Below, piece by piece: positions 1-10,810 of a stretch of DNA of 64,000 bases; within the stretch, counting starts at the first letter, position 1; each line of letters begins with the position of its first letter. The position numbers and the translations under genes were made by a program. The notes beneath the pieces were generated by a model. The model was given only the letters and a program-made list of their open reading frames with translations. It did not search any database and had not been told where the DNA came from. Where the stretch lies: positions 2,790,001 to 2,854,000 of the forward strand of contig NZ_OY726397.1 in assembly GCF_963378095.1 (NCBI RefSeq), given 5' to 3'. Origin of the DNA: Mycolicibacterium sp. MU0053. Its GTDB lineage: Bacteria > Actinomycetota > Actinomycetes > Mycobacteriales > Mycobacteriaceae.

Positions 1-22
1 GCGCGGTGTTGTCCTCAGCCAC
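1..22 (-). CDS. Probable response regulator, first seven codons only (cut by window start)
   Basis: A GTG at 22-20 overlaps the histidine kinase stop codon (17-15) and reads V-A-E-D-N-T-A up to the window edge. Sensor kinases of the upstream gene's type are almost always followed by a NarL/LuxR-family response regulator, and these often start with a short polar stretch like this one. The identity is inferred from position only; no receiver-domain residue is visible. Confidence 0.3.
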
Positions 23-1181
23 GCTGTTGTCCCGGTTCCGATTGACTCCTGGGTACGGTCAGTTCCCATTCGACGCCGTCGCCCACCTCCGTGGCCAATC
101 GGGCCGATCCGCCCAACGCAGTGAGCCGGCCGACGATCGACTGGGAGATCCCCATCCTGCCCTCGGCTTCGGCCCGAGCCAGGCGATCCGGCGCGATACC
201 TACGCCGTCGTCACGGATGCTGATCGTCACGGCGTCGCCGAGATCCTCGAGCAGCACATACGCCCGAGCCTGCTCCCCAGCATGCGCGCGCACGTTGTCC
301 AGCACATTGCCGACGGCCGCATCCAGCTCGCTCACCACGATCGAATCGAGCAGCACCGGCGTTCCCGGCACACTGATCACCACCCCGTCCTCGGCCCGCC
401 GGTTCAGCCACTCCCGCAGGTCGACCGCCTGCGGGTCAATGTCCTGCCCGGCGGTATCGACGCTGACCAACCTGCGCAGCGCGCGTTCCTGTTCCCCGGC
501 CAGCTGGGCGAGTTCTGTTGTCGGCCCACCGATCTCATTCCCGCGCTTGGCCACCAGCGCCAACACTTGCATGACCCCGTCGTGGACCTGACGGGCCAGG
601 CGTTCACGCTCGGCCACCGCGGCCGAGATCCGCACCGCGCGTTCCAACTCGGCGTGGGCACGGCGCGCGGTCTGGGCGGCCATCCCCACCGCCAACCCAA
701 CCGCGAGTTCGATGATGATCGTCGCGTTACGGGTGAAGTCGAAGCTCACCGACCCCTTCAGCGCGGCGTAGACGGCCATGACGCCCACCCCGGCACCCAT
801 CCCGGCCACGGGGCCGAGCAGAATCGCCGCGGAGATCGGCGCGTTGGTGGCCCACAGGGTCGTCGGCCAGGACTGGTTGGCGGCGATCCATTCCGGTGCG
901 GCCACCAGGTGCGTTGACCAGATCAGCAGGATCACGACCAGGAACTCGGCGGTCACCCAGGCCGGTCGACGCCCGAAGCCGTGCAGATAGGCCACCGCGC
1001 AGGCCAACGTCCAGCCGGACAGGACCGCGAACAGCACCCATCCCCGCATCGGGTGTTCGATGTCGTCCATGCCGGCGATCTGGAACCCCGCCGCGTACAG
1101 ATAGCTCAGCAGCCGGAACACCTGCGCCGCCCGCCACAATGGGGCCGCGGGATCGTACGCGGTTGGACGCGGGGCGCTCAC
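15..1181 (-). CDS. Sensor histidine kinase, HisKA_3/NarL-partner type
   Basis: This 388-residue membrane sensor kinase has about five or six hydrophobic segments in residues 15-170, with little extracellular loop. A HisKA_3 dimerisation helix follows, with phospho-acceptor H200 in the motif Q-V-H-D-G-V. The C-terminal ATPase domain shows an N-box (D-N-V near residue 300) and G-box (D-D-G-V-G-I). The layout resembles the MacS-type mycobacterial kinases that pair with LuxR-type regulators. GTG 1181 is chosen because it forms a 4-base GTGA overlap with the stop codon of the upstream kinase gene, which implies coupled translation. A longer upstream reading in this frame runs through the kinase gene and is not credible. 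The signal is unknown; with so little extracytoplasmic sequence it may read the membrane or a partner receptor. Confidence 0.85.
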   Translation of the reverse strand: MSAPRPTAYDPAAPLWRAAQVFRLLSYLYAAGFQIAGMDDIEHPMRGWVLFAVLSGWTLACAVAYLHGFGRRPAWVTAEFLVVILLIWSTHLVAAPEWIAANQSWPTTLWATNAPISAAILLGPVAGMGAGVGVMAVYAALKGSVSFDFTRNATIIIELAVGLAVGMAAQTARRAHAELERAVRISAAVAERERLARQVHDGVMQVLALVAKRGNEIGGPTTELAQLAGEQERALRRLVSVDTAGQDIDPQAVDLREWLNRRAEDGVVISVPGTPVLLDSIVVSELDAAVGNVLDNVRAHAGEQARAYVLLEDLGDAVTISIRDDGVGIAPDRLARAEAEGRMGISQSIVGRLTALGGSARLATEVGDGVEWELTVPRSQSEPGQQRG

Positions 1182-3001
1182 CTGGTGGCGCCGTTGATCT
1201 GCGGCTGATCGATCATCCCGAGTTCGACGCCCCACATGGTCGCGATGGTGCGGTACTCGCCGGTGCTCATCACGTGTTCGAGCGCCAGCCGCAGGGCCTC
1301 GCCCAGCTCGGAACCCTTGGGCACCGGCCAGCCGTAGAGGCCCGCGTCGAACACCTCCCCCGCGGTTTCGAGCGCACCCCCGCTGGTCTTGACCGCGAAG
1401 CCGGTCACCGGAGAGTCGGCCGACATCGCGTCGACGTCGCCGGCGATCAATGCGGCGGTGAGATCGTCCTGGCGCGTGAAGGCCACCTTCTCGATCGGGG
1501 GCCTGCCGGCAGCCAGGCATGCCTGGTTCTTGGCGGGGATCTCCTCGGTCTCCTGAATCACGCCGTAGGCCACTCCGACTCGCAGCCCGCAGGCGTCGTC
1601 CGGGTCGATTCCGGCGCCCGGGCGCTGCGCCCACAGCGTGCCCGCGGAGAAGTAGTTCACGAAGTCCACCATGCGTTCGCGGGCCTTGGTGTCGGTCACC
1701 GACGACATCCCGACGTTGAAGCTGCCGCCCACCACCGAGGACATGATGGCGTCGAACGCCGTCTCCCGGTAATCCGGTGTCAGGCCCAATGTCCGGGCCA
1801 CCGCGTCCATCAGATCGACGTCGAATCCCACCAGTTCGCCGTAGGAGTCCCGAAACTCGTTGGGCGCGTATGGAACGTTGACCCCGATGACCAGCCGGCC
1901 GGTCGCGCGGATGTCGGCGGGCACGGTCTCGGCAATCGCGGCCACCGCACCGTCGGGCAGCTCGACCGCGACCGGTGCGGTGCTTTCGGCGACGTTGGCG
2001 GCCCGGGTCCGCTCGTCGGAGACGCCCCGCAACTGCCAGGCGCCGAAGGTGCACACCGATGCCACCAACACTCCGGTGACGGCCGCGACGAGCACCCGGC
2101 GCCGGGACAGCGGGCGGGGTCGAGACGCCCGGTGCGTGGACCGCTCCGTCCGGCGCGTGGGTCGAATCTTGGGTTGGTTCACCGCGCGTCGGGCCGCGAC
2201 GGCCAGGGCCGAGACACTTGCGTAGCGGTCAGCCGGATCCTTGGCCATGCCCTTGGCGATCACCTCGTCGAACGCGGCCAGGGCGGGGTCGGCGTCCGAG
2301 GGACGGGGCGGCGGAGCGACCATGTGGCCGGCGATCTGCTGCTCCAGGCTGTCGCTGGGGTAGGGCCGGTTGCCGGTCAGACACTCATAGAGCACGCACG
2401 TCAGGGCGTAGACGTCGGAGCGCGGGTCGCTGGGACCGCCGTGGAACCGTTCCGGCGCCATGTAGGCCAGCGTGCCCAGCGTGTTGCCGGCGGTGGTGAC
2501 GCCGGGTTCGGTGGTGGTACGCGCGAGTCCGAAGTCGATCAGGTAGACGAATTCACGCTCGGAGATCAGGATGTTGGACGGTTTGACGTCGCGGTGGACC
2601 AGACCGACCTGATGCGCGGCGTCGAGCGCCGACCCCACCTGCTCGACCACCACCGTCGCCAACTCGGAACCCAGCGGAGCGGCACGTCTGCTCAGGATCG
2701 CGGCCAGGGTCAGTCCCTCGATTAACCGCATGTCGAGATAGAGCCGGCCATCGATTTCGCCGTACCCGTGGATCGGGACGACATGCGGGTCGTTGACCCC
2801 GGCCGCGGCCTGCGCCTCCCGCCGGAACCGCCGCTGAAACACGGCGTCGCGGGCGAGATGCAGGGGCAGCAGCTTCAGCGCGACTATCCGGTCGGTCTTG
2901 GAGTCGCGGGCGCGGTACACCTCCCCCATACCGCCACGGCCGAGCAGCTCCAGCAGCTCGTAGTGGCCAAAGTGCTCAGGCTCAGCAGACGTGGTATCCA
3001 C
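1178..3001 (-). CDS. Ser/Thr protein kinase fused to an extracellular amino-acid-binding domain
   Basis: This 607-residue transmembrane receptor kinase has an N-terminal PknB-like kinase (about 12-272) with glycine loop G21-R-G-G-M-G, K43, catalytic H136-R-D138, D156-F-G and A-P-E-R near 182. The activation segment contains Thr169, Thr170 and Thr174. A basic linker (275-302) leads to a single membrane helix (about 302-325). Residues 365-600 form a bacterial family 3 solute-binding domain. That domain is about 70% identical by hand count, over about 110 residues, to the free lipoprotein receptor encoded at 4740-5663, and both end in a shared G-M-I-D-x-P motif. Inferred role: sensing the imported solute outside the cell and phosphorylating cytoplasmic targets. 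It starts 45 bases after the ATPase gene and overlaps the histidine kinase gene. Similar fusions are annotated in other mycobacteria, but I know of no established function. Confidence 0.9.
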   Translation of the reverse strand: MDTTSAEPEHFGHYELLELLGRGGMGEVYRARDSKTDRIVALKLLPLHLARDAVFQRRFRREAQAAAGVNDPHVVPIHGYGEIDGRLYLDMRLIEGLTLAAILSRRAAPLGSELATVVVEQVGSALDAAHQVGLVHRDVKPSNILISEREFVYLIDFGLARTTTEPGVTTAGNTLGTLAYMAPERFHGGPSDPRSDVYALTCVLYECLTGNRPYPSDSLEQQIAGHMVAPPPRPSDADPALAAFDEVIAKGMAKDPADRYASVSALAVAARRAVNQPKIRPTRRTERSTHRASRPRPLSRRRVLVAAVTGVLVASVCTFGAWQLRGVSDERTRAANVAESTAPVAVELPDGAVAAIAETVPADIRATGRLVIGVNVPYAPNEFRDSYGELVGFDVDLMDAVARTLGLTPDYRETAFDAIMSSVVGGSFNVGMSSVTDTKARERMVDFVNYFSAGTLWAQRPGAGIDPDDACGLRVGVAYGVIQETEEIPAKNQACLAAGRPPIEKVAFTRQDDLTAALIAGDVDAMSADSPVTGFAVKTSGGALETAGEVFDAGLYGWPVPKGSELGEALRLALEHVMSTGEYRTIATMWGVELGMIDQPQINGATR

Positions 3002-3046
3002 CGTTCATCCCTGGGCGTCAACGCCCCCCGACGAAGTTGACTGAAT

Positions 3047-3814
3047 TTACATCACCTTCGACAGGAATGCCTTCGTGCGGTCGTGTTGCGGGTTGCTCAG
3101 GACCTCGCGCGGATGTCCACTTTCGACGATCACGCCCGCGTCCATGAACACCAGCCGATCGGCGACCTCCCGGGCGAAGCCCATCTCGTGCGTGACCACC
3201 ACCATCGTCATCCCCTCCGCAGCAAGCTTTTTCATCACGCTGAGCACCTCCCCGACCAGTTCCGGGTCCAGCGCCGAGGTGGGTTCGTCGAACAGCATCA
3301 GCTTCGGGCTCATCGCCAACGCCCGGGCAATGGCCACCCGCTGCTGCTGGCCGCCGGAGAGTTGCGCCGGATAGGCGTTGGCCTTGGCCGACAGGCCCAC
3401 CTGCTCGAGCAGGTCCTTGGCCCGTGCCGTCGCCTCGGCCTTCTTCACCTTCTTGACGTGGATCGGGGCTTCCATGATGTTTTGCAGGGCGGTGCGATGC
3501 GGGAACAGATTGAAGTGCTGGAACACCATCCCGACATCGCGACGCTGCTTGGCCGCCTCCCGGGGTGGCAATTCGTGCAGTTTGCCTCCGCGTTCGCGAT
3601 AGCCGACGAGTTGGCCGTCGACGTAGAGCCGGCCGGCGGTGACCTCCTCGAGGTGATTGATGCAGCGCAGGAAGGTGGACTTGCCCGAACCCGACGGGCC
3701 GACCAGGACGAGCACCTGCCCCTTGTCGACCTCCAACGTCACGCCCTTGAGCACCTGTAGGGCACCGAAGTCCTTGCAGACCAATTCGGCCTTGACCATC
3801 GGAGTTCCGGTCAT
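3047..3814 (-). CDS. Polar amino-acid ABC transporter ATP-binding protein (GlnQ type)
   Basis: This 255-residue ATPase energises solute import through the adjacent permease on the cytoplasmic face. It has Walker A G-P-S-G-S-G-K-S (39-46), Q-loop M-V-F-Q, signature L-S-G-G-Q, Walker B L-M-L-F-D-E-P and the switch His in V-V-T-H-E. The length and the T-H-E-M-G-F-A motif match the polar amino-acid uptake family. ATG 3814 overlaps the permease stop as ATGA, so the longer reading that extends into the permease gene is rejected. It is the third gene of the cluster, followed 45 bases later by the fused receptor kinase. Confidence 0.95.
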
Positions 3815-4728
3815 GGCTGCGGCCCACCGATCTGTTCTCGGGCCAGCGCCTCGAGTTGTTTGGTGGTCAGCTTCCGCGACGCCCCGCGGGAGAAGTACCG
3901 CTCGAGGTAGAACTGGCCGACCATCAACAGGCTGGTGGCGGCCAGATACCAGGTGGCGGCGACCAGCAGCAGCGGGATCGGTTCGAAGATGCGCGCGGCG
4001 ATCTCGCGCGACGTGATGCCGTACAACTCCAGCGTGTAAGGCACGGCCGTCACCAGCGAGGTGGTCTTCAGCATGCTGATCACCTCGTTGCCGGTGGGCG
4101 GGATGATCACCCGCATCGCCTGCGGCAGGATGGTTCGGCGCATCGTCATCGCCCACGACATGCCCAGCGCGGTCGAGGCTTCGGTCTGTCCTTCCGGCAC
4201 CGAACTGATTCCGGCGCGGATGATTTCGGCCATGTACGCCGCCTCGTTCAGGGCCAGGCCGATGAGCGCCAACAGAAACGGGAACGACACGTTCTGCAGG
4301 TCCAGGTGCAGCAGCGACGGCCCGAACGGGACGCCGAGTTGGACATTCTGATAGATGGTCGGGAACAGGCCCCAGAACACCAGCTGCACGTAAACCGGCG
4401 TGCCGCGGAAGATCCACAGATACACCCAGGCCACCCAGCGGAACACCGGGTTCGGCGAGAGCCGCATGACCGCCAGCACCACACCGAGGATGACCGCGAG
4501 CACCATCGCATACACCGTCAGCTGCAGGGTGTTCCAGACACCTTGCAGCACACGCTCATTGAACAGGTATTCGCGATAGGTGGCCCAGCCGTACGCCGGG
4601 TTGGTGGCGGCGCCCCACAGGAACAGCCCGGCGACGACGAGAATGGCCGCCGCGGTCACCCATCGCCACGGGTGCCGCAGCGGCACGGCATCGATGGGCG
4701 CCGGTGACGATGCCGAGTCAACACTCAT
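3811..4728 (-). CDS. Polar amino-acid ABC transporter permease
   Basis: This 305-residue inner-membrane permease has a hydrophilic N-terminus, a first membrane helix at about 25-42 and four or five more from about 65 onward. The His/Glu/Gln/Arg-type EAA loop starts at N-E-A-A (161-164) and continues to G-x-x-x-x-G-Q near 180, the docking site for the ATPase. ATG 4728 lies 11 bases after the receptor stop codon. A single permease gene suggests a homodimeric channel. The exact substrate (Gln, Glu, Arg, Cys or similar) cannot be read from the sequence. Confidence 0.93.
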
Positions 4729-4739
4729 CCGCGAACCGT

Positions 4740-5663
4740 TCAGTTGACCGCGCCGTTGATCACAGGCTTGTCGATCATCCCCTGTTCCACACCCCAATTG
4801 GTCGCGATCGTCTCATAGTCACCGGTCTCGATCAGATGCTCGAGGGCCTTTTGCAGCGCCGCGGCCAACGCGGAACCCTTGGCGACGGGCCAGCCGTAGG
4901 GTGCGGAATCGAACACCTCACCGATCTGTTCGAGCTTGCCGTTGCTCTGCTTGATCGCATAGAGCACCACCGGGGAGTCCGCCGACACCGCATCGGCCTG
5001 CCCGAGGACGACGGCGTTGGTCGCGGCGTCCTGACCGTCGAAGGCCATGATCTCGATCGCGGGTTTGCCCGCGTCGGTGCACGCCTTGCTCTTGGCCGGT
5101 AGTTCGGTGGTGTCCTGATGGGTGGTCGCCTGCACCGCGACCTTCTTGCCGCAGGCATCGGTGGGATCGATGCCAGCACCCGGCCGCTGCGCCCACAACG
5201 TGCCCGCGGAGAAGTACGTCACGAAGTCCACCGAGGCTTCCCGCTCCTTGGTATCGGTGAACGACGACATGCCCACGTTGTAGGTGCCGCCCTGGATGGC
5301 CGGGATGATCTTTCCGAAGTCGGATTCCCGGTACTCCGGGGTCAGTCCCAGGGTCTCGGCGATCGCGTTCATCAGGTCGACGTCGAAGCCGACGATCTTG
5401 CCGCTGGGGTCCTTGAACTCGTTGGGCGGGTAGGGAATGTTCACGCCGATGACGAGCTTGCCGGAAGCCTTGATGTCCTCGGGGACCGTCGCCGCGATCT
5501 CTTCCACCACGCTCGCGGCCACCGGCGAGGACTCCGGGGACTCGCCGGCGGAGTCAGTGCTGCTCGAGCACCCCGAGAGCGCGAGCGCGCCCGAGGCCAC
5601 CAGAATCGTTGTCCAACGCCACCATCGCGCACCGCTCCGACGTCCTTGTAGTGCTGATTTCAC
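4740..5663 (-). CDS. Lipoprotein amino-acid-binding receptor of the ABC transporter
   Basis: This 307-residue family 3 solute-binding protein has a signal peptide with hydrophobic core at about 18-30 and lipobox L-S-G-C, giving a lipidated Cys32. The mature domain contains G-x-D-V-D-L-M and a conserved central segment typical of polar amino-acid receptors. GTG 5663 is preferred to upstream starts because an AAGGTGG ribosome site lies about 7 bases upstream and it gives a normal lipoprotein signal. It is first in the cluster. It is a close paralogue of the extracellular half of the receptor kinase at 1178-3001, so both probably bind the same or a related ligand. Confidence 0.93.
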   Translation of the reverse strand: MKSALQGRRSGARWWRWTTILVASGALALSGCSSSTDSAGESPESSPVAASVVEEIAATVPEDIKASGKLVIGVNIPYPPNEFKDPSGKIVGFDVDLMNAIAETLGLTPEYRESDFGKIIPAIQGGTYNVGMSSFTDTKEREASVDFVTYFSAGTLWAQRPGAGIDPTDACGKKVAVQATTHQDTTELPAKSKACTDAGKPAIEIMAFDGQDAATNAVVLGQADAVSADSPVVLYAIKQSNGKLEQIGEVFDSAPYGWPVAKGSALAAALQKALEHLIETGDYETIATNWGVEQGMIDKPVINGAVN

Positions 5664-5885
5664 GGTTTCCACCTTCTCGTACTCGTCCACTCGGAGTGCG
5701 TCCGCGCTACCTCGTCGAGGCGACGTCAATGACCGTAAACCCCAGGCTGCACTGCCGCTCACCGAACATTAACGATCGCATCGGCCGTCCACGGTCACAT
5801 TGCACGTTCTCATGGCGTGCGGTAGCGGACCCGCGCCGCACCCTAAACGTGACCCACGGGCCCGGGAATGTGTCAGACTTCGGCA

Positions 5886-6482
5886 ATGGTGACGCCAGCC
5901 GACCAGGGTCCAGCAGCGACCACTCAATCCACCACCGTTCCAAGCCTGTTGCCGCACCTGTGGCGGACCACCCTGCTCTCGGGTCTCGCCGCGATCATTC
6001 TGGGTGTGCTGATGTTGGCCTGGCCGGGCACCACGATTTTGGTGGCCGCCATCATCTTCGGCGTCTACCTGCTGGTCAGCGGAATCACGCAGGTCGTCTT
6101 CGCCTTCACGTTGCATGTCTCGGCCGGCGGCCGGGTGCTGCTGTTCATCAGTGGCGCTGCGGCACTGGTACTGGCCGTGTTGTGTTTCCGCAGCCTGCAG
6201 GAGTCGATCCTGTTGTTGGCGATCTGGATTGGCATCGGGTTCATCTTCCGCGGGGTGGCGACGGCGGTGTCGGCGATCAGTGATCCGACCCTGCCCGGGC
6301 GCGGCTGGGAGATTTTCTTCGGTGTCGTGAGCCTGCTCGCCGGTCTGGTCATGTTGGCCACGCCGTTCGGTTCCCTGGGTGTATTGGCGCTGGTGGTCGG
6401 CATCTGGCTGATCGTGCTCGGTGTCTTCGAGGTCATCACGGCATTCGGCATCCGGAAGGCCGTCAAAACCCTGACCTTGTAG
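5886..6482 (+). CDS. HdeD-family (DUF308) membrane protein
   Basis: This 198-residue protein is mostly hydrophobic, with about six membrane helices in two or three repeated hairpins. Recurring G-x-x-x-L-x-W-P-G and L-G-V-x-x-L motifs are typical of DUF308/HdeD proteins, whose enterobacterial members are linked to acid stress. An in-frame ATG at 5868 is also possible; neither start has a strong ribosome site. In mycobacteria a related gene lies next to cydA (the Rv1624c position), as here, but no direct role in respiration is shown. Confidence 0.8.
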   Translation: MVTPADQGPAATTQSTTVPSLLPHLWRTTLLSGLAAIILGVLMLAWPGTTILVAAIIFGVYLLVSGITQVVFAFTLHVSAGGRVLLFISGAAALVLAVLCFRSLQESILLLAIWIGIGFIFRGVATAVSAISDPTLPGRGWEIFFGVVSLLAGLVMLATPFGSLGVLALVVGIWLIVLGVFEVITAFGIRKAVKTLTL

Positions 6483-6529
6483 CCGTCGGCGCTCTGCGGG
6501 GAGAATCACACCCGGCCTCGCCGAATTTT

Positions 6530-6546
6530 TACTACTCTCCGTAGTA
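6530..6546. promoter_or_regulatory. Perfect inverted repeat upstream of cydA, likely operator
   Basis: TACTAC, five bases, GTAGTA: 6-bp perfect arms in the 95-base gap before cydA, ending 31 bases before its ATG. The TAC/GTA dyad looks like a dimeric repressor site; BlaI/MecI-type operators use similar TAC...GTA arms. The regulator assignment is inference. Confidence 0.5.
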
Positions 6547-6577
6547 GCTACAGGCTTGCAGCCCGGGAGATGTACGC

Positions 6578-8074
6578 ATGGATGCTTTGGACGTATCACG
6601 GTGGCAGTTCGGGATCACCACGGTCTACCACTTCATATTTGTTCCCCTGACCATCGGTCTGGCACCGTTGATCGCGGTGATGCAGACGATCTGGCACGTC
6701 ACCGGGCGTCCCGAGTGGTACCGCCTCACGCGGTTCTTCGGGAAGTTGTTCCTCATCAACTTCGCCATCGGGGTGGCCACCGGCATCGTCCAGGAATTCC
6801 AGTTCGGGATGAACTGGAGCGAGTACTCCCGGTTCGTCGGCGACGTATTCGGCGCCCCCCTCGCGATGGAAGGGCTGGCCGCCTTCTTCTTCGAATCAAC
6901 CTTCATCGGACTGTGGATCTTCGGGTGGTCGCGACTGCCCCGCATCGTGCACTTGGCGTGTATCTGGATCGTGGCGATCGCGGTCAACATGTCGGCCTTC
7001 TTCATCATCAGCGCCAACTCGTTCATGCAGCACCCCGTTGGGGCAACCTTTAATCCGGAGACCGGACGCGCCGAGTTGCACAGCATTCTCGAGTTGTTCA
7101 CCAACAACACCGCGATCTGGGCATTCCTGCACGCGGTGGCGGGGTCGTTCCTGACCGCCGGCACGTTTGTCGCCGCCGTGTGCGCATGGTGGATGGTGCG
7201 GAGCCGAAAATCGGTGCCGGCCAATCACACCGACGTTGAAGACGACGCCAAGCGGGTGGCCTCCGATGGCGGCACGCTGTTCCGCCCAGCGGCGATCCTT
7301 GGCTCCTGGGTGACCCTCGTGGCGGCCGTCGCCCTGATCTTCACCGGCGACATCCAGGGCAAGCTGATGTTCGAGCAGCAGCCCATGAAGATGGCCTCTG
7401 CAGAATCGTTGTGCCACACCGAAACCGATCCGATGTTCTCGATCCTCACGGTCGGCACCCACAACAACTGCGACAGCATCGTCCGAGTGCTCGAGGTGCC
7501 CTGGGTGCTGCCGCTGCTGGCAGAGGGCCAGCTTTCGGGGGTGACGCTGGAGGGCATCGAGAACCTGCAGGTCGAGGCCGAAGAGGCGTTCGGTCCCGGC
7601 AACTACCGGCCGAACCTGTTCGTCACCTACTGGTCGTTCCGGGCGATGATCGGACTGCTGCTGGTGCCGGTGGTCTTCGCGCTCGCCGTCCTGTGGTTGA
7701 CGCGGCGCAAGGCCGTCCCGGACCACCACTGGTTGTCCTGGTTCGCCCTGATCACCCTCCCGACCCCGTTCCTGGCCAACAGCGCCGGTTGGATTTTCAC
7801 CGAGATGGGCCGACAACCGTGGGTCGTGGTGCCCAACCGGGACGGCGACCAGCTGATCCGGCTCACCGTGCAGGACGGCGTGTCCAACCATTCGGCGGGC
7901 ATGGTGTGGGTTTCGCTGACCACGCTGACGCTGACCTATGCGGTGCTGGCGGTCATCTGGTTCTACCTGCTGCGACGTTATGTGGTCGTCGGGCCCCAGG
8001 AACACGACTCGGAACCCGCGCCGCCCACGCCACCCGGTGACGACGACGTGGCTCCACTATCCTTCGCGTACTAA
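6578..8074 (+). CDS. cydA: Cytochrome bd oxidase subunit I
   Basis: This 498-residue quinol oxidase subunit carries the b and d haems in the inner membrane and oxidises menaquinol while reducing oxygen. It begins M-D-A-L-D-V-S-R-W-Q-F-G; His18 is the expected axial haem ligand. The family segments G-I-V-Q-E-F-Q-F-G-M-N-W and F-F-E-S-T-F are present, with about nine membrane helices. A GGGAGA ribosome site lies 8 bases before ATG 6578. It is first in a cydA-cydB-cydD-cydC run. Cytochrome bd supports respiration at low oxygen or when the bcc-aa3 branch is blocked. Confidence 0.97.
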   Translation: MDALDVSRWQFGITTVYHFIFVPLTIGLAPLIAVMQTIWHVTGRPEWYRLTRFFGKLFLINFAIGVATGIVQEFQFGMNWSEYSRFVGDVFGAPLAMEGLAAFFFESTFIGLWIFGWSRLPRIVHLACIWIVAIAVNMSAFFIISANSFMQHPVGATFNPETGRAELHSILELFTNNTAIWAFLHAVAGSFLTAGTFVAAVCAWWMVRSRKSVPANHTDVEDDAKRVASDGGTLFRPAAILGSWVTLVAAVALIFTGDIQGKLMFEQQPMKMASAESLCHTETDPMFSILTVGTHNNCDSIVRVLEVPWVLPLLAEGQLSGVTLEGIENLQVEAEEAFGPGNYRPNLFVTYWSFRAMIGLLLVPVVFALAVLWLTRRKAVPDHHWLSWFALITLPTPFLANSAGWIFTEMGRQPWVVVPNRDGDQLIRLTVQDGVSNHSAGMVWVSLTTLTLTYAVLAVIWFYLLRRYVVVGPQEHDSEPAPPTPPGDDDVAPLSFAY

Positions 8075-8087
8075 GGATTTGATCGAG

Positions 8088-9146
8088 ATGGGATTACCGG
8101 AACTCTGGTTCATTCTGGTCGCGGTGCTCTTCTTGGGATTTTTCATGCTGGAGGGCTTCGACTTCGGCGCCGGCATGCTGATGGCACCGCTGGGGCGGAT
8201 GGCGGGCCGGGCCGGTGGCCCGGAAGCCGCCGACAACCATCGCCGGGCGGTCCTCAACACCATCGGACCGGTCTGGGACGGCAACGAGGTATGGCTGATC
8301 ACCGCCGGCGGCGCCATGTTCGCCGCCTTCCCGGGCTGGTACGCGACAGTGTTCTCCGGGCTCTTTCTGCCGCTGCTGGCGATCCTGTTCGGGATGATTC
8401 TGCGCGTCGTCGCCATCGAATGGCGCGGCAAGATCGATGACCCGAAATGGCGGCACCGGGCCGACCTCGGGATCGCGATCGGATCCTGGTTGCCCGCGAT
8501 CCTGTGGGGTGCGGCGTTCGCGATCCTGCTCCGCGGGTTGCCCGTGGGCGCCGATCAGCAGGTGAGCAACCTGGCGTTCACCGACGTGATCAACCCGTAC
8601 ACGTTGCTCGGCGGGCTCACCACCTGCGGCATCTTCTTGCTGCACGGCGTGGCGTTCCTGGCTCTCAAGACTGCCGGCGAGGTCCGCGACAACACGCTGA
8701 AGGTCGGCCGCTGGTTGGCGCTGCCAGTGCTGGCACTGGCCGGGACGTTCGGGCTGTGGACCCAGATTGACCATGGCAAGACCGGCTCCTGGGTGGCCTT
8801 CGGGATTGCGGTACTGGCGTTGCTCGGCGCCGTCATGCTGCTGCGCGCCGGGACCCGGGACGGCTGGGCATTCGTGCTGACCACCGTCACCGTCCTCGCC
8901 GTGGTCACGATGCTCTTCGTGAACCTCTACCCCAATGTGCTGCCGTCCACGCTGAACCCGGACTGGAACCTCACCATCTACAACACCGCCTCCAACCCGT
9001 ACACGCTCAAGGTGATGACCTGGGCCGCCGCCATTTTCACCCCGCTGGTGATCGGCTACCAGTCCTGGACGTACTGGGTGTTTCGGCAACGCATCTCGGC
9101 CGACCGTATCCCGGCCTCCATCGGCCTGGCGGGGCGTCGACGCTGA
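8088..9146 (+). CDS. cydB: Cytochrome bd oxidase subunit II
   Basis: This 352-residue membrane partner of CydA starts M-G-L-P-E-L-W-F, with the characteristic F-M-L-E-G-F-D-F-G segment in the first helix (Glu22, Asp25) and P-V-W-D-G-N-E-V-W near residue 65. About eight membrane helices are seen, the usual size and topology. ATG 8088 lies 13 bases after the cydA stop; the longer reading from 7938 runs inside cydA and is a shadow. It forms the heterodimeric oxidase with CydA. Confidence 0.97.
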   Translation: MGLPELWFILVAVLFLGFFMLEGFDFGAGMLMAPLGRMAGRAGGPEAADNHRRAVLNTIGPVWDGNEVWLITAGGAMFAAFPGWYATVFSGLFLPLLAILFGMILRVVAIEWRGKIDDPKWRHRADLGIAIGSWLPAILWGAAFAILLRGLPVGADQQVSNLAFTDVINPYTLLGGLTTCGIFLLHGVAFLALKTAGEVRDNTLKVGRWLALPVLALAGTFGLWTQIDHGKTGSWVAFGIAVLALLGAVMLLRAGTRDGWAFVLTTVTVLAVVTMLFVNLYPNVLPSTLNPDWNLTIYNTASNPYTLKVMTWAAAIFTPLVIGYQSWTYWVFRQRISADRIPASIGLAGRRR

Positions 9147-9181
9147 GTCCCGGGAGAACCACCCAGTCCGGCCGGGCGCAG

Positions 9182-10810
9182 TTGTCCCGCCTGGTCACCG
9201 CGTCTGCCTCGGTGCGGCGATTCCTCGTCGGCACTGTGGGATGCGGTGTGGTCACCGCGGTGTGCGCGATCAGCTCCGCGATCGTGCTGGCTCATCTGGT
9301 GGCCGCGCTGATCACCGACCCGGACAGCCGAAGCCTTGCGCAACAAGCCATCCCGCTGATGCTGCTCGCGCTGATCTGGACGGTGCGCACGGTGGCGCAG
9401 TGGGCGCAGGCGCGGATCAGCCAGCACGAAGCCAGCGCGGTCATCGCCGACCTCAGCGGGCAGGTGCTGCGGGCGGTCACGGCCGGCAGCCCGCGCGCGC
9501 TGGCCGCACACCGCGATGATGCGGCCGCGGTGGTGCTACGTGGACTCGACGGCCTGCGGCCCTACTTCACGTCGTATCTGCCCGCGCTGCTGCTCGCCGC
9601 GGTCCTTACCCCCGCGGCGCTGATCGCGATGGCCACCTTCGATCTGCAGGCCGCGGCGATCGTGCTGGTGGCCCTGCCGCTGGTCCCGCTGTTCATGGTG
9701 CTGATCGGACTGGTCACCGCCGACCGTTCGGCGGCCGCCCTGGCGGCGATGACCTCACTGCAATCGCGGCTGCTGGACCTGATCGCCGGGATCCCGACCC
9801 TGCGCGCCCTGGGGCGGGCCGACGGCCCAGGCGCGCGCATCGCCGAACTCAATGCGGCCCACCGCCGTTCGGCGATGGCGACGCTGCGGATCACCTTCAT
9901 GTCGAGCCTGGTGCTGGAATTGCTGGCGACGCTCGGGGTGGCGCTGGTAGCGGTCAGCGTCGGCCTGCGCCTGGTCTACGGCGATGTTGGTCTGGCCGCG
10001 GCTTTGACCGTGCTGCTGCTGGCTCCCGACGTGTTCTGGCCGCTACGCCGCGTCGGCGTGGCCTATCACGCCGCTGATGATGGAAAGACCGCCGCGGCAA
10101 AGGCCTTCGAACTCATCGAGATGGGCGTCGGACCGTCCGGCGGGTCCCGGACCGTAACCGCTGCCGGCGCACCGATTCGCATCGAGGCCGTGACCGTCAG
10201 CGGTCGGGACGGTCCCCGGCCCGCCGATCTCTGGGCGATCGTCGAACCCGGCGCGATCACCGTCCTCACCGGACCCAACGGCGCAGGCAAATCGACGACG
10301 TTGCAGGTGATCGCGGGCCTGACCGCGCCGAGCGCCGGTCGGGTCACGATCGGCGGGGTCGAAATCGGGGATCTCGACCGCCGGTTGTGGTGGCGCCAAC
10401 TGTCCTGGTTGCCGCAGCGCCCGGTGCTGGTCCCGGGCACCGTAGCCGAGAACCTGGCGTTGTTCGGACCGCTGAACGACCCGGATGCCGCCTGCGCGGC
10501 ATCCGGTTTCGACGCCGTCCTGCGCGAGCTCCCCGACGGCATCGCGACACCGATCGGCCGCGGGGGTGTCGGACTGTCGCTGGGTCAGCGTCAACGGCTC
10601 GGACTGGCGCGTGCGCTGGGGTCGAGTGCGCCGGTACTGCTGCTCGACGAGCCCACCGCCCATCTCGACGCCGGAACCGAGGCGCGGGTGCTCGGCGCAC
10701 TGCGGGCCCGGGGGCGCGACGGCGACACGGTGGTGATCGTGGGACACCGCCCGCCGGTGTTGGCCATCGCGGACCGCATTGTGGAGGTCGGTGCTCATGT
10801 GGCGGCATGA
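9182..10810 (+). CDS. cydD: Thiol reductant ABC exporter subunit CydD
   Basis: This roughly 542-residue half-exporter has six membrane helices in about residues 15-300 and a nucleotide-binding domain with Walker A G-P-N-G-A-G-K-S (about 364), signature L-S-L-G-Q and Walker B L-L-L-D-E-P. The CydDC heterodimer exports cysteine or glutathione-like thiols in E. coli and is needed for cytochrome bd assembly. The best available start is TTG 9182, 35 bases after cydB; no ATG or GTG fits better, so the true start could differ by a few codons. It overlaps cydC by 14 bases. Confidence 0.93.
   Translation: MSRLVTASASVRRFLVGTVGCGVVTAVCAISSAIVLAHLVAALITDPDSRSLAQQAIPLMLLALIWTVRTVAQWAQARISQHEASAVIADLSGQVLRAVTAGSPRALAAHRDDAAAVVLRGLDGLRPYFTSYLPALLLAAVLTPAALIAMATFDLQAAAIVLVALPLVPLFMVLIGLVTADRSAAALAAMTSLQSRLLDLIAGIPTLRALGRADGPGARIAELNAAHRRSAMATLRITFMSSLVLELLATLGVALVAVSVGLRLVYGDVGLAAALTVLLLAPDVFWPLRRVGVAYHAADDGKTAAAKAFELIEMGVGPSGGSRTVTAAGAPIRIEAVTVSGRDGPRPADLWAIVEPGAITVLTGPNGAGKSTTLQVIAGLTAPSAGRVTIGGVEIGDLDRRLWWRQLSWLPQRPVLVPGTVAENLALFGPLNDPDAACAASGFDAVLRELPDGIATPIGRGGVGLSLGQRQRLGLARALGSSAPVLLLDEPTAHLDAGTEARVLGALRARGRDGDTVVIVGHRPPVLAIADRIVEVGAHVAA

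Follow-up and report, generated by a model that had tools for sequence, protein, structure and literature searches.

An StpK7-family receptor kinase encoded within an amino acid-type transporter cluster of Mycolicibacterium sp. MU0053 and what it may sense

The 64,000-nucleotide stretch of Mycolicibacterium sp. MU0053 analyzed in this study (contig NZ_OY726397.1, positions 2,790,001 to 2,854,000; hereafter the window) begins with a gene cluster in which a serine/threonine (Ser/Thr) receptor kinase is encoded between an ATP-binding cassette (ABC) transporter and a two-component system. The gene order on the minus strand is a solute-binding protein (SBP) lipoprotein, a permease, an ATPase, the receptor kinase, a MacS-family histidine kinase and a NarL-type response regulator. 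By its match to model NF052427, the kinase gene at 1178-3001 is the local ortholog of StpK7 (MSMEG_1200), an already-described kinase family. The features of the cluster are as follows.

4740..5663, minus strand: free solute-binding lipoprotein of the transporter, 307 amino acid residues, SBP_bac_3, with an LSGC lipobox read from the sequence
about 4791-5456, minus strand: SBP domain of the free lipoprotein, SBP_bac_3
3811..4728, minus strand: permease of a polar amino acid type ABC transporter, 305 residues (TIGR01726 HEQRo_perm_3TM, 67.0 bits, cut-off 42.2)
3047..3814, minus strand: ABC transporter ATPase, 255 residues (PF00005, 126.4 bits, cut-off 25)
1178..3001, minus strand: Ser/Thr receptor kinase, StpK7 ortholog, 607 residues (NF052427, 1038.3 bits, cut-off 900)
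2219..2962, minus strand: kinase domain, residues 14-261 (Pfam Pkinase, 150.7 bits; VAxK, HRD, DFG and APE motifs)
2033..2101, minus strand: single transmembrane helix of the kinase, residues about 301-323, predicted from hydropathy and also modelled as a helix at low confidence
1229..1894, minus strand: extracellular SBP_bac_3 sensor domain of the kinase, residues 370-591 (80.5 bits)
15..1181, minus strand: MacS-family sensor histidine kinase, 388 residues (NF047322, 469.3 bits, cut-off 300)
1..22, minus strand: start of the NarL/LuxR-type response regulator gene, the remainder of which lies outside the window (L018:5354-6022) and encodes receiver and LuxR domains

The longest frame of the free SBP gene is 4740-5762, and its 340-residue numbering is used below for pocket positions; the GTG at 5663, which has a purine-rich stretch upstream, is the likelier start. 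The permease and ATPase genes overlap by 4 bp, as do the kinase and histidine kinase genes, and the gap from the ATPase gene to the kinase gene is 45 bp. The six genes from the SBP to the response regulator look like one transcription unit. Given that the StpK7 gene is placed between those of the ATPase and the histidine kinase, co-expression of the importer, the Ser/Thr kinase and the two-component system is probable. An SBP family 3 lipoprotein, a HEQRo-type permease and an ABC ATPase adjoin one another, as in importers of the PAAT family. Similar to GlnHPQ, EhuABCD and HisJQMP of this family, the importer consists of SBP, permease and ATPase. Different from them, however, all substrate-specific models listed for it (lysine/arginine/ornithine, glutamine, cystine and other specific NCBIfam models; for the ATPase, the best 25 of 142) scored under their cut-offs, including EhuA and GlnQ, the best specific ATPase models among those 25. 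The histidine kinase matched the MacS model above its cut-off and adjoins a LuxR-type response regulator, which is the composition of a MacRS two-component system.

An earlier note on this DNA had described a kinase and a transporter with a shared ligand-binding domain. Pfam and NCBIfam matches together with the gene order bore out the shared ligand-binding fold, the membrane receptor kinase, the polar amino acid type transporter and their location in one gene cluster. The cluster itself is larger than kinase plus ABC transporter, as the histidine kinase gene (15-1181) and the response regulator gene follow that of the kinase. The name transceptor, for a receptor both importing and signalling, is wrong because SBP, permease, ATPase and kinase each have an open frame of their own and no single protein does both.

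Residues 7-607 of the kinase protein aligned to positions 2-601 of the 601-position NF052427 model. Similar to StpK7, it possesses the kinase motifs, one membrane helix and a C-terminal SBP_bac_3 domain. The VAxK, HRD, DFG and APE motifs were found in 81/81 kinase orthologs, with a hydrophobic stretch before the SBP domain; this ortholog set comprised 81 of 82 extracted kinase rows, a 25-residue piece being left out. In a fold search, the top solved match for the kinase domain was PknE of Mycobacterium tuberculosis (52% identity), whose outside sensor differs from the SBP sensor found here. The structure model of the kinase had a mean predicted local distance difference test (pLDDT) score of 70.8 and was confident only for the kinase domain and for some stretches of the first lobe of the sensor. 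That of the free SBP, for which a 288-residue shorter frame of the same gene was folded, was poor (mean pLDDT 54.0). The alignments for both models contained close relatives only (40 and 31 sequences).

SBP_bac_3 sensors are also carried by BvgS-type Venus-flytrap histidine kinases. In Venus-flytrap histidine kinases, such as the 'Sensor protein' of PDB 3h7m, a solute-binding domain is likewise reused as an outside sensor, whereas the output in the window is a Ser/Thr kinase. Kinase-SBP fusions have been in print since 2018; passages of that paper give MSMEG_1200 as an example and name Streptomyces species too (PMC6069109). The earlier note, in which PASTA, propeller or other domains were given as the sensors of known mycobacterial kinases, had overlooked them. 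The same paper proposes that GlnH, an SBP, feeds amino acid signals to the kinase PknG in the same genus (mBio 2018, PMC6069109). Similar to the cluster described here, the GlnH-GlnX-PknG system links a solute-binding lipoprotein and a Ser/Thr kinase in amino acid sensing. It is, however, presented there as three proteins with GlnX as the membrane part (PMC6069109), whereas sensor and kinase are one membrane protein in the window.

A single BLASTP comparison between the kinase sensor and the free SBP yielded 177/297 identities (60%) with E=4e-114, which rules out chance similarity. The best 110 columns of the alignment were 72% identical, in agreement with the about 70% over about 110 residues first noticed. 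For pocket positions, roles in ligand contact were presumed from the GlnBP, LAO and HisJ structures. N108, P110, Y111, F149, S166, S167, T169, R174, D262, S263 and P264 were invariant in the 40 free SBPs and shared by 76 to 81 of the 81 kinases. However, one C-lobe loop near the ligand site differs, reading AYGVIQ in the window kinase and QATTHQ in the free SBP. Q211 was found in 40/40 free SBPs vs 4/81 kinases, in which Ala was present in 66, and T213 in 39/40 free SBPs vs 0/81 kinases. Given that most predicted contacts are kept, amino acid recognition is plausible in both domains; given the different loop, the kinase would have an altered side-chain subsite. The proposal of overlapping pockets thus holds for most predicted contacts and fails at this loop.

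When placed in one tree with 41 free SBPs, one of which served as the outgroup, the 81 kinase SBPs formed one clade, with a support of 100 in the Shimodaira-Hasegawa-like approximate likelihood ratio test (SH-aLRT). The SBP of the window kinase was 86% identical to the kinase SBP of another genome with the same gene order (G291) vs 60% to the adjoining free SBP. The identities between free and kinase SBPs inside one genome ranged from 56 to 60% (four operon genomes), and the mean identity between kinase SBPs and free SBPs of the genus was 57% (81 kinases, 25 free). The mean mutual identity was 71% for kinase SBPs (40 of the 81 used) and 79% for free SBPs of the genus (25 used), the two means being from different samples. 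Because the kinase SBPs are one clade and the within-genome identities are only 56 to 60%, the duplication that led to the fusion is old and not recent in this cluster. The SBP tree and the identities rule out that the sensor was recently duplicated, or homogenised by gene conversion, within the cluster, which contradicts the domain duplication inside the cluster that had been proposed. Judged from these sequence comparisons, the fusion sensor arose once, long ago, from the SBP family of this transporter.

With presence defined as a score above the NF052427 cut-off, StpK7 was found in 30 of the 401 family genomes, each of the 30 belonging to the window's genus, and in 3/296 genomes of the phylum, again only in that genus (only the top candidates per genome were scored). 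It was found in 92/198 sampled genomes of the genus. For the 91 other genus loci, flanks of about 9 kb in either direction were included, or shorter ones where a contig ended; five had <5 kb on one side. Five of these 91 loci hold the permease, or 6/92 with the window. Among 80 named StpK7 loci, a set that overlaps with the 91/92 genus loci and is biased to close relatives because it is the best 80 of 278, two were operon-linked; 10 of the 80 had <5 kb on one side. Another 38 regions were selected around free SBPs, and in 19 of them a histidine kinase gene adjoins the transporter. No histidine kinase match was found in the other 19, one of which stops at a contig end just past the ATPase gene. 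In 18/18 operons that lack StpK7 and encode both an ATPase and a histidine kinase, these two genes are directly adjacent (spacing about -15 to 29 bp); in G291, the one remaining region of the 19, StpK7 lies between them. Likewise, the fusion gene of the window separates the ATPase gene from that of the MacS-family histidine kinase.

Across all sets, eight operon-linked kinases were identified, which were the window's own and those of G291, G776, L049, L056, G813, G905 and G835 (L049 and G903 are apparently one contig). A single branch set all eight apart from the other rows, with a support of 89 in the kinase-domain tree and of 82 in the full-length tree (46 rows in both). The support for the first four was 96 with the kinase domain (89 rows) and 99.7 at full length (46 kinases of 81). 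This operon clade was near the base when kinase paralogs were the outgroup and nested when a second fusion type, described below, was the long-branched outgroup. The 4-bp overlap of the kinase and histidine kinase genes occurred in 4/8 operon loci, while the two genes were about 0.2 kb apart in one and >1.1 kb apart in three. The >1.1 kb separations are L056:11776-13109, L275:10800-12136 and, in L279, 10764-11959 on its reverse complement; that of L056 is mostly filled by a 448-residue stop-free stretch on the opposite strand. No description of the operon arrangement was recognised in the open-licence literature searched. Because kinase and transporter genes are far apart in most sampled relatives, StpK7 in the transporter operon is a lineage-specific arrangement, which suggests, but does not prove, what the kinase senses.

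The permease, for which the presence threshold was E<=1e-90, was found in 106/198 genus genomes. Kinase and permease were both present in 85 genomes, the kinase only in 7, the permease only in 21 and neither in 85. Hence 85/92 StpK7 genomes vs 21/106 genomes without StpK7 contained the permease; the Fisher p of 8e-27 is not to be taken at face value because relatedness is uncorrected.

Taken together, we consider it fairly probable that the StpK7 ortholog is an amino-acid-type sensor kinase that is activated by its ligand and is co-expressed here with the importer and the two-component system. The kinase most likely senses an amino acid like the imported one. A small polar amino acid or a similar compound would close the two sensor lobes outside the membrane, and this closure, via the single helix, would change the dimer state or the activity of the cytoplasmic Ser/Thr kinase. 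Members of the operon clade probably produce the importer together with the Ser/Thr kinase and the two-component system. An extension of this model, which we regard as unlikely and offer as a conjecture, is that one nutrient in the operon clade drives import, Ser/Thr phosphorylation by a kinase with a borrowed receptor domain, and the two-component pair. The kinase would then possibly phosphorylate the adjoining response regulator, and the clade may keep the ancestral arrangement of the now dispersed StpK7 genes.

Several results weigh against an amino acid-sensing role, in addition to the different C-lobe loop and the uncorrected relatedness. First, no permease or histidine kinase match at E<=1e-8 was found within about 9 kb in 86/92 StpK7 loci. 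Thus, although a permease is present somewhere in 85/92 genomes, the fusions do not generally lie beside a matching transporter, an outcome that the earlier note had itself named as counting against its proposal. Second, of the seven StpK7 genomes without the permease, two are drafts 70 and 73% complete and five are 95 to 100% complete. Given the unlinked loci and these seven genomes, the kinase does not need the permease. Third, SBP-only trees do not group the operon kinases as one clade; a tree constrained to a single SBP clade for the first four was not rejected (approximately unbiased test, p-AU 0.48). Finally, the passages of two reviews consulted tie StpK7 to susceptibility to phage TM4 and to a lipid-associated island, not to amino acids (PMC13355554, PMC13314858). 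According to the first, StpK7 phosphorylates and inhibits MSMEG_1198, deletion of stpK7 leads to TM4 resistance, and the gene island of StpK7 is tied to lipid homeostasis (PMC13355554). As described in the second, TM4 hijacks StpK7, so that MSMEG_1198 is phosphorylated and a BREX-like island is silenced (PMC13314858). Part of a further paper compares the StpK7 kinase domain with a phage protein (PMC12363180).

These points lend themselves to a different explanation, namely that the kinase sensor drifted to another ligand or no longer binds any, and that StpK7 is found in the transporter operon by a historical accident of this lineage, the two receptors sharing no signal. The near absence of Q211 and T213 from the kinases, the greater mutual divergence of kinase SBPs than of free SBPs (in different samples), the 86/92 unlinked fusions and, in the review passages, the reported phage and lipid-island role (PMC13355554, PMC13314858) all fit such drift. 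However, most predicted contact positions are kept in kinases and free SBPs alike, kinase and permease co-occur in genomes, and at least eight genomes of a single clade retain StpK7 in the operon. We judge drift possible, though on the unlikely side.

Bce-type sensors read transport activity. By analogy, the kinase sensor might dock on the adjoining permease and read its transport activity instead of free ligand, for which it would have the same fold family as the permease's own partner and a co-expression that is likely from the gene spacing; this is very improbable, as StpK7 occurs without this permease in 7/92 genomes and own-operon kinase and free SBPs (56 to 60% in four genomes) are no closer than the 57% genus mean, which gives no hint that a docking surface was conserved.

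Fusions of other composition were also observed. L285:8992-10740 (G837) and L286:8992-10728 (G855) encode a second kinase-SBP fusion, and both genomes also hold StpK7. The SBP domain of the L285 fusion was 60% identical to the sensor of the window StpK7, whereas its kinase domain was only 35% identical to the window kinase and nearest, among the kinases of the window's genome, to L006 (40%). In L285 and L286, the StpK7-type sensor was apparently fused to a different kinase. A kinase-SBP search of 98 class-wide genomes returned 20 matches in frames of at least 550 residues besides StpK7, and the six of these frames examined (L288-L293) had no kinase-domain match; further fusions may therefore exist. 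L175, a 621-residue frame, was rejected as a fusion, being an ordinary SBP with a spurious N-terminal extension. In L287 (G844:C2, a 341-kb contig), the kinase and SBP parts of a StpK7-like copy at about 9001-10781 are in two separate frames, and the same genome contains a full-length StpK7 on another contig.

By an unlinked StpK7, L194:423-8994 (G831) contains frames that, named by reading the sequence, resemble a P450, a fatty acid desaturase, two mycolate/cyclopropane methyltransferases and a ketoacyl synthase. These neighbours, which look lipid-modifying, fit the lipid-associated island that part of a review describes for MSMEG_1191-1200 (PMC13355554). Divergent from the operon, window positions 5868-9146 on the plus strand contain an HdeD/DUF308-like membrane protein frame and cytochrome bd oxidase-like frames, likewise named by reading; look-alike frames also adjoin the operon in L049 and L056.

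Similar to StpK7 described elsewhere, the window kinase matches the family at full length and combines kinase, helix and SBP sensor. Different from the 86/92 sampled genomes with no such permease or histidine kinase nearby, it is in an operon with a paralogous transporter and a MacS/NarL-type pair. The kinase family and the fusion were known; the lineage-specific operon was not met in the literature searched, and it gives a good ligand hypothesis for StpK7. Since the operon-linked kinases form a clade and kinase and permease tend to occur in the same genomes, the concrete guess for the ligand is whatever the adjoining SBP binds. If StpK7 does receive a nutrient input, its TM4 role as reported in passages of the two reviews (PMC13355554, PMC13314858) would make this a testable link between nutrition and phage defence.

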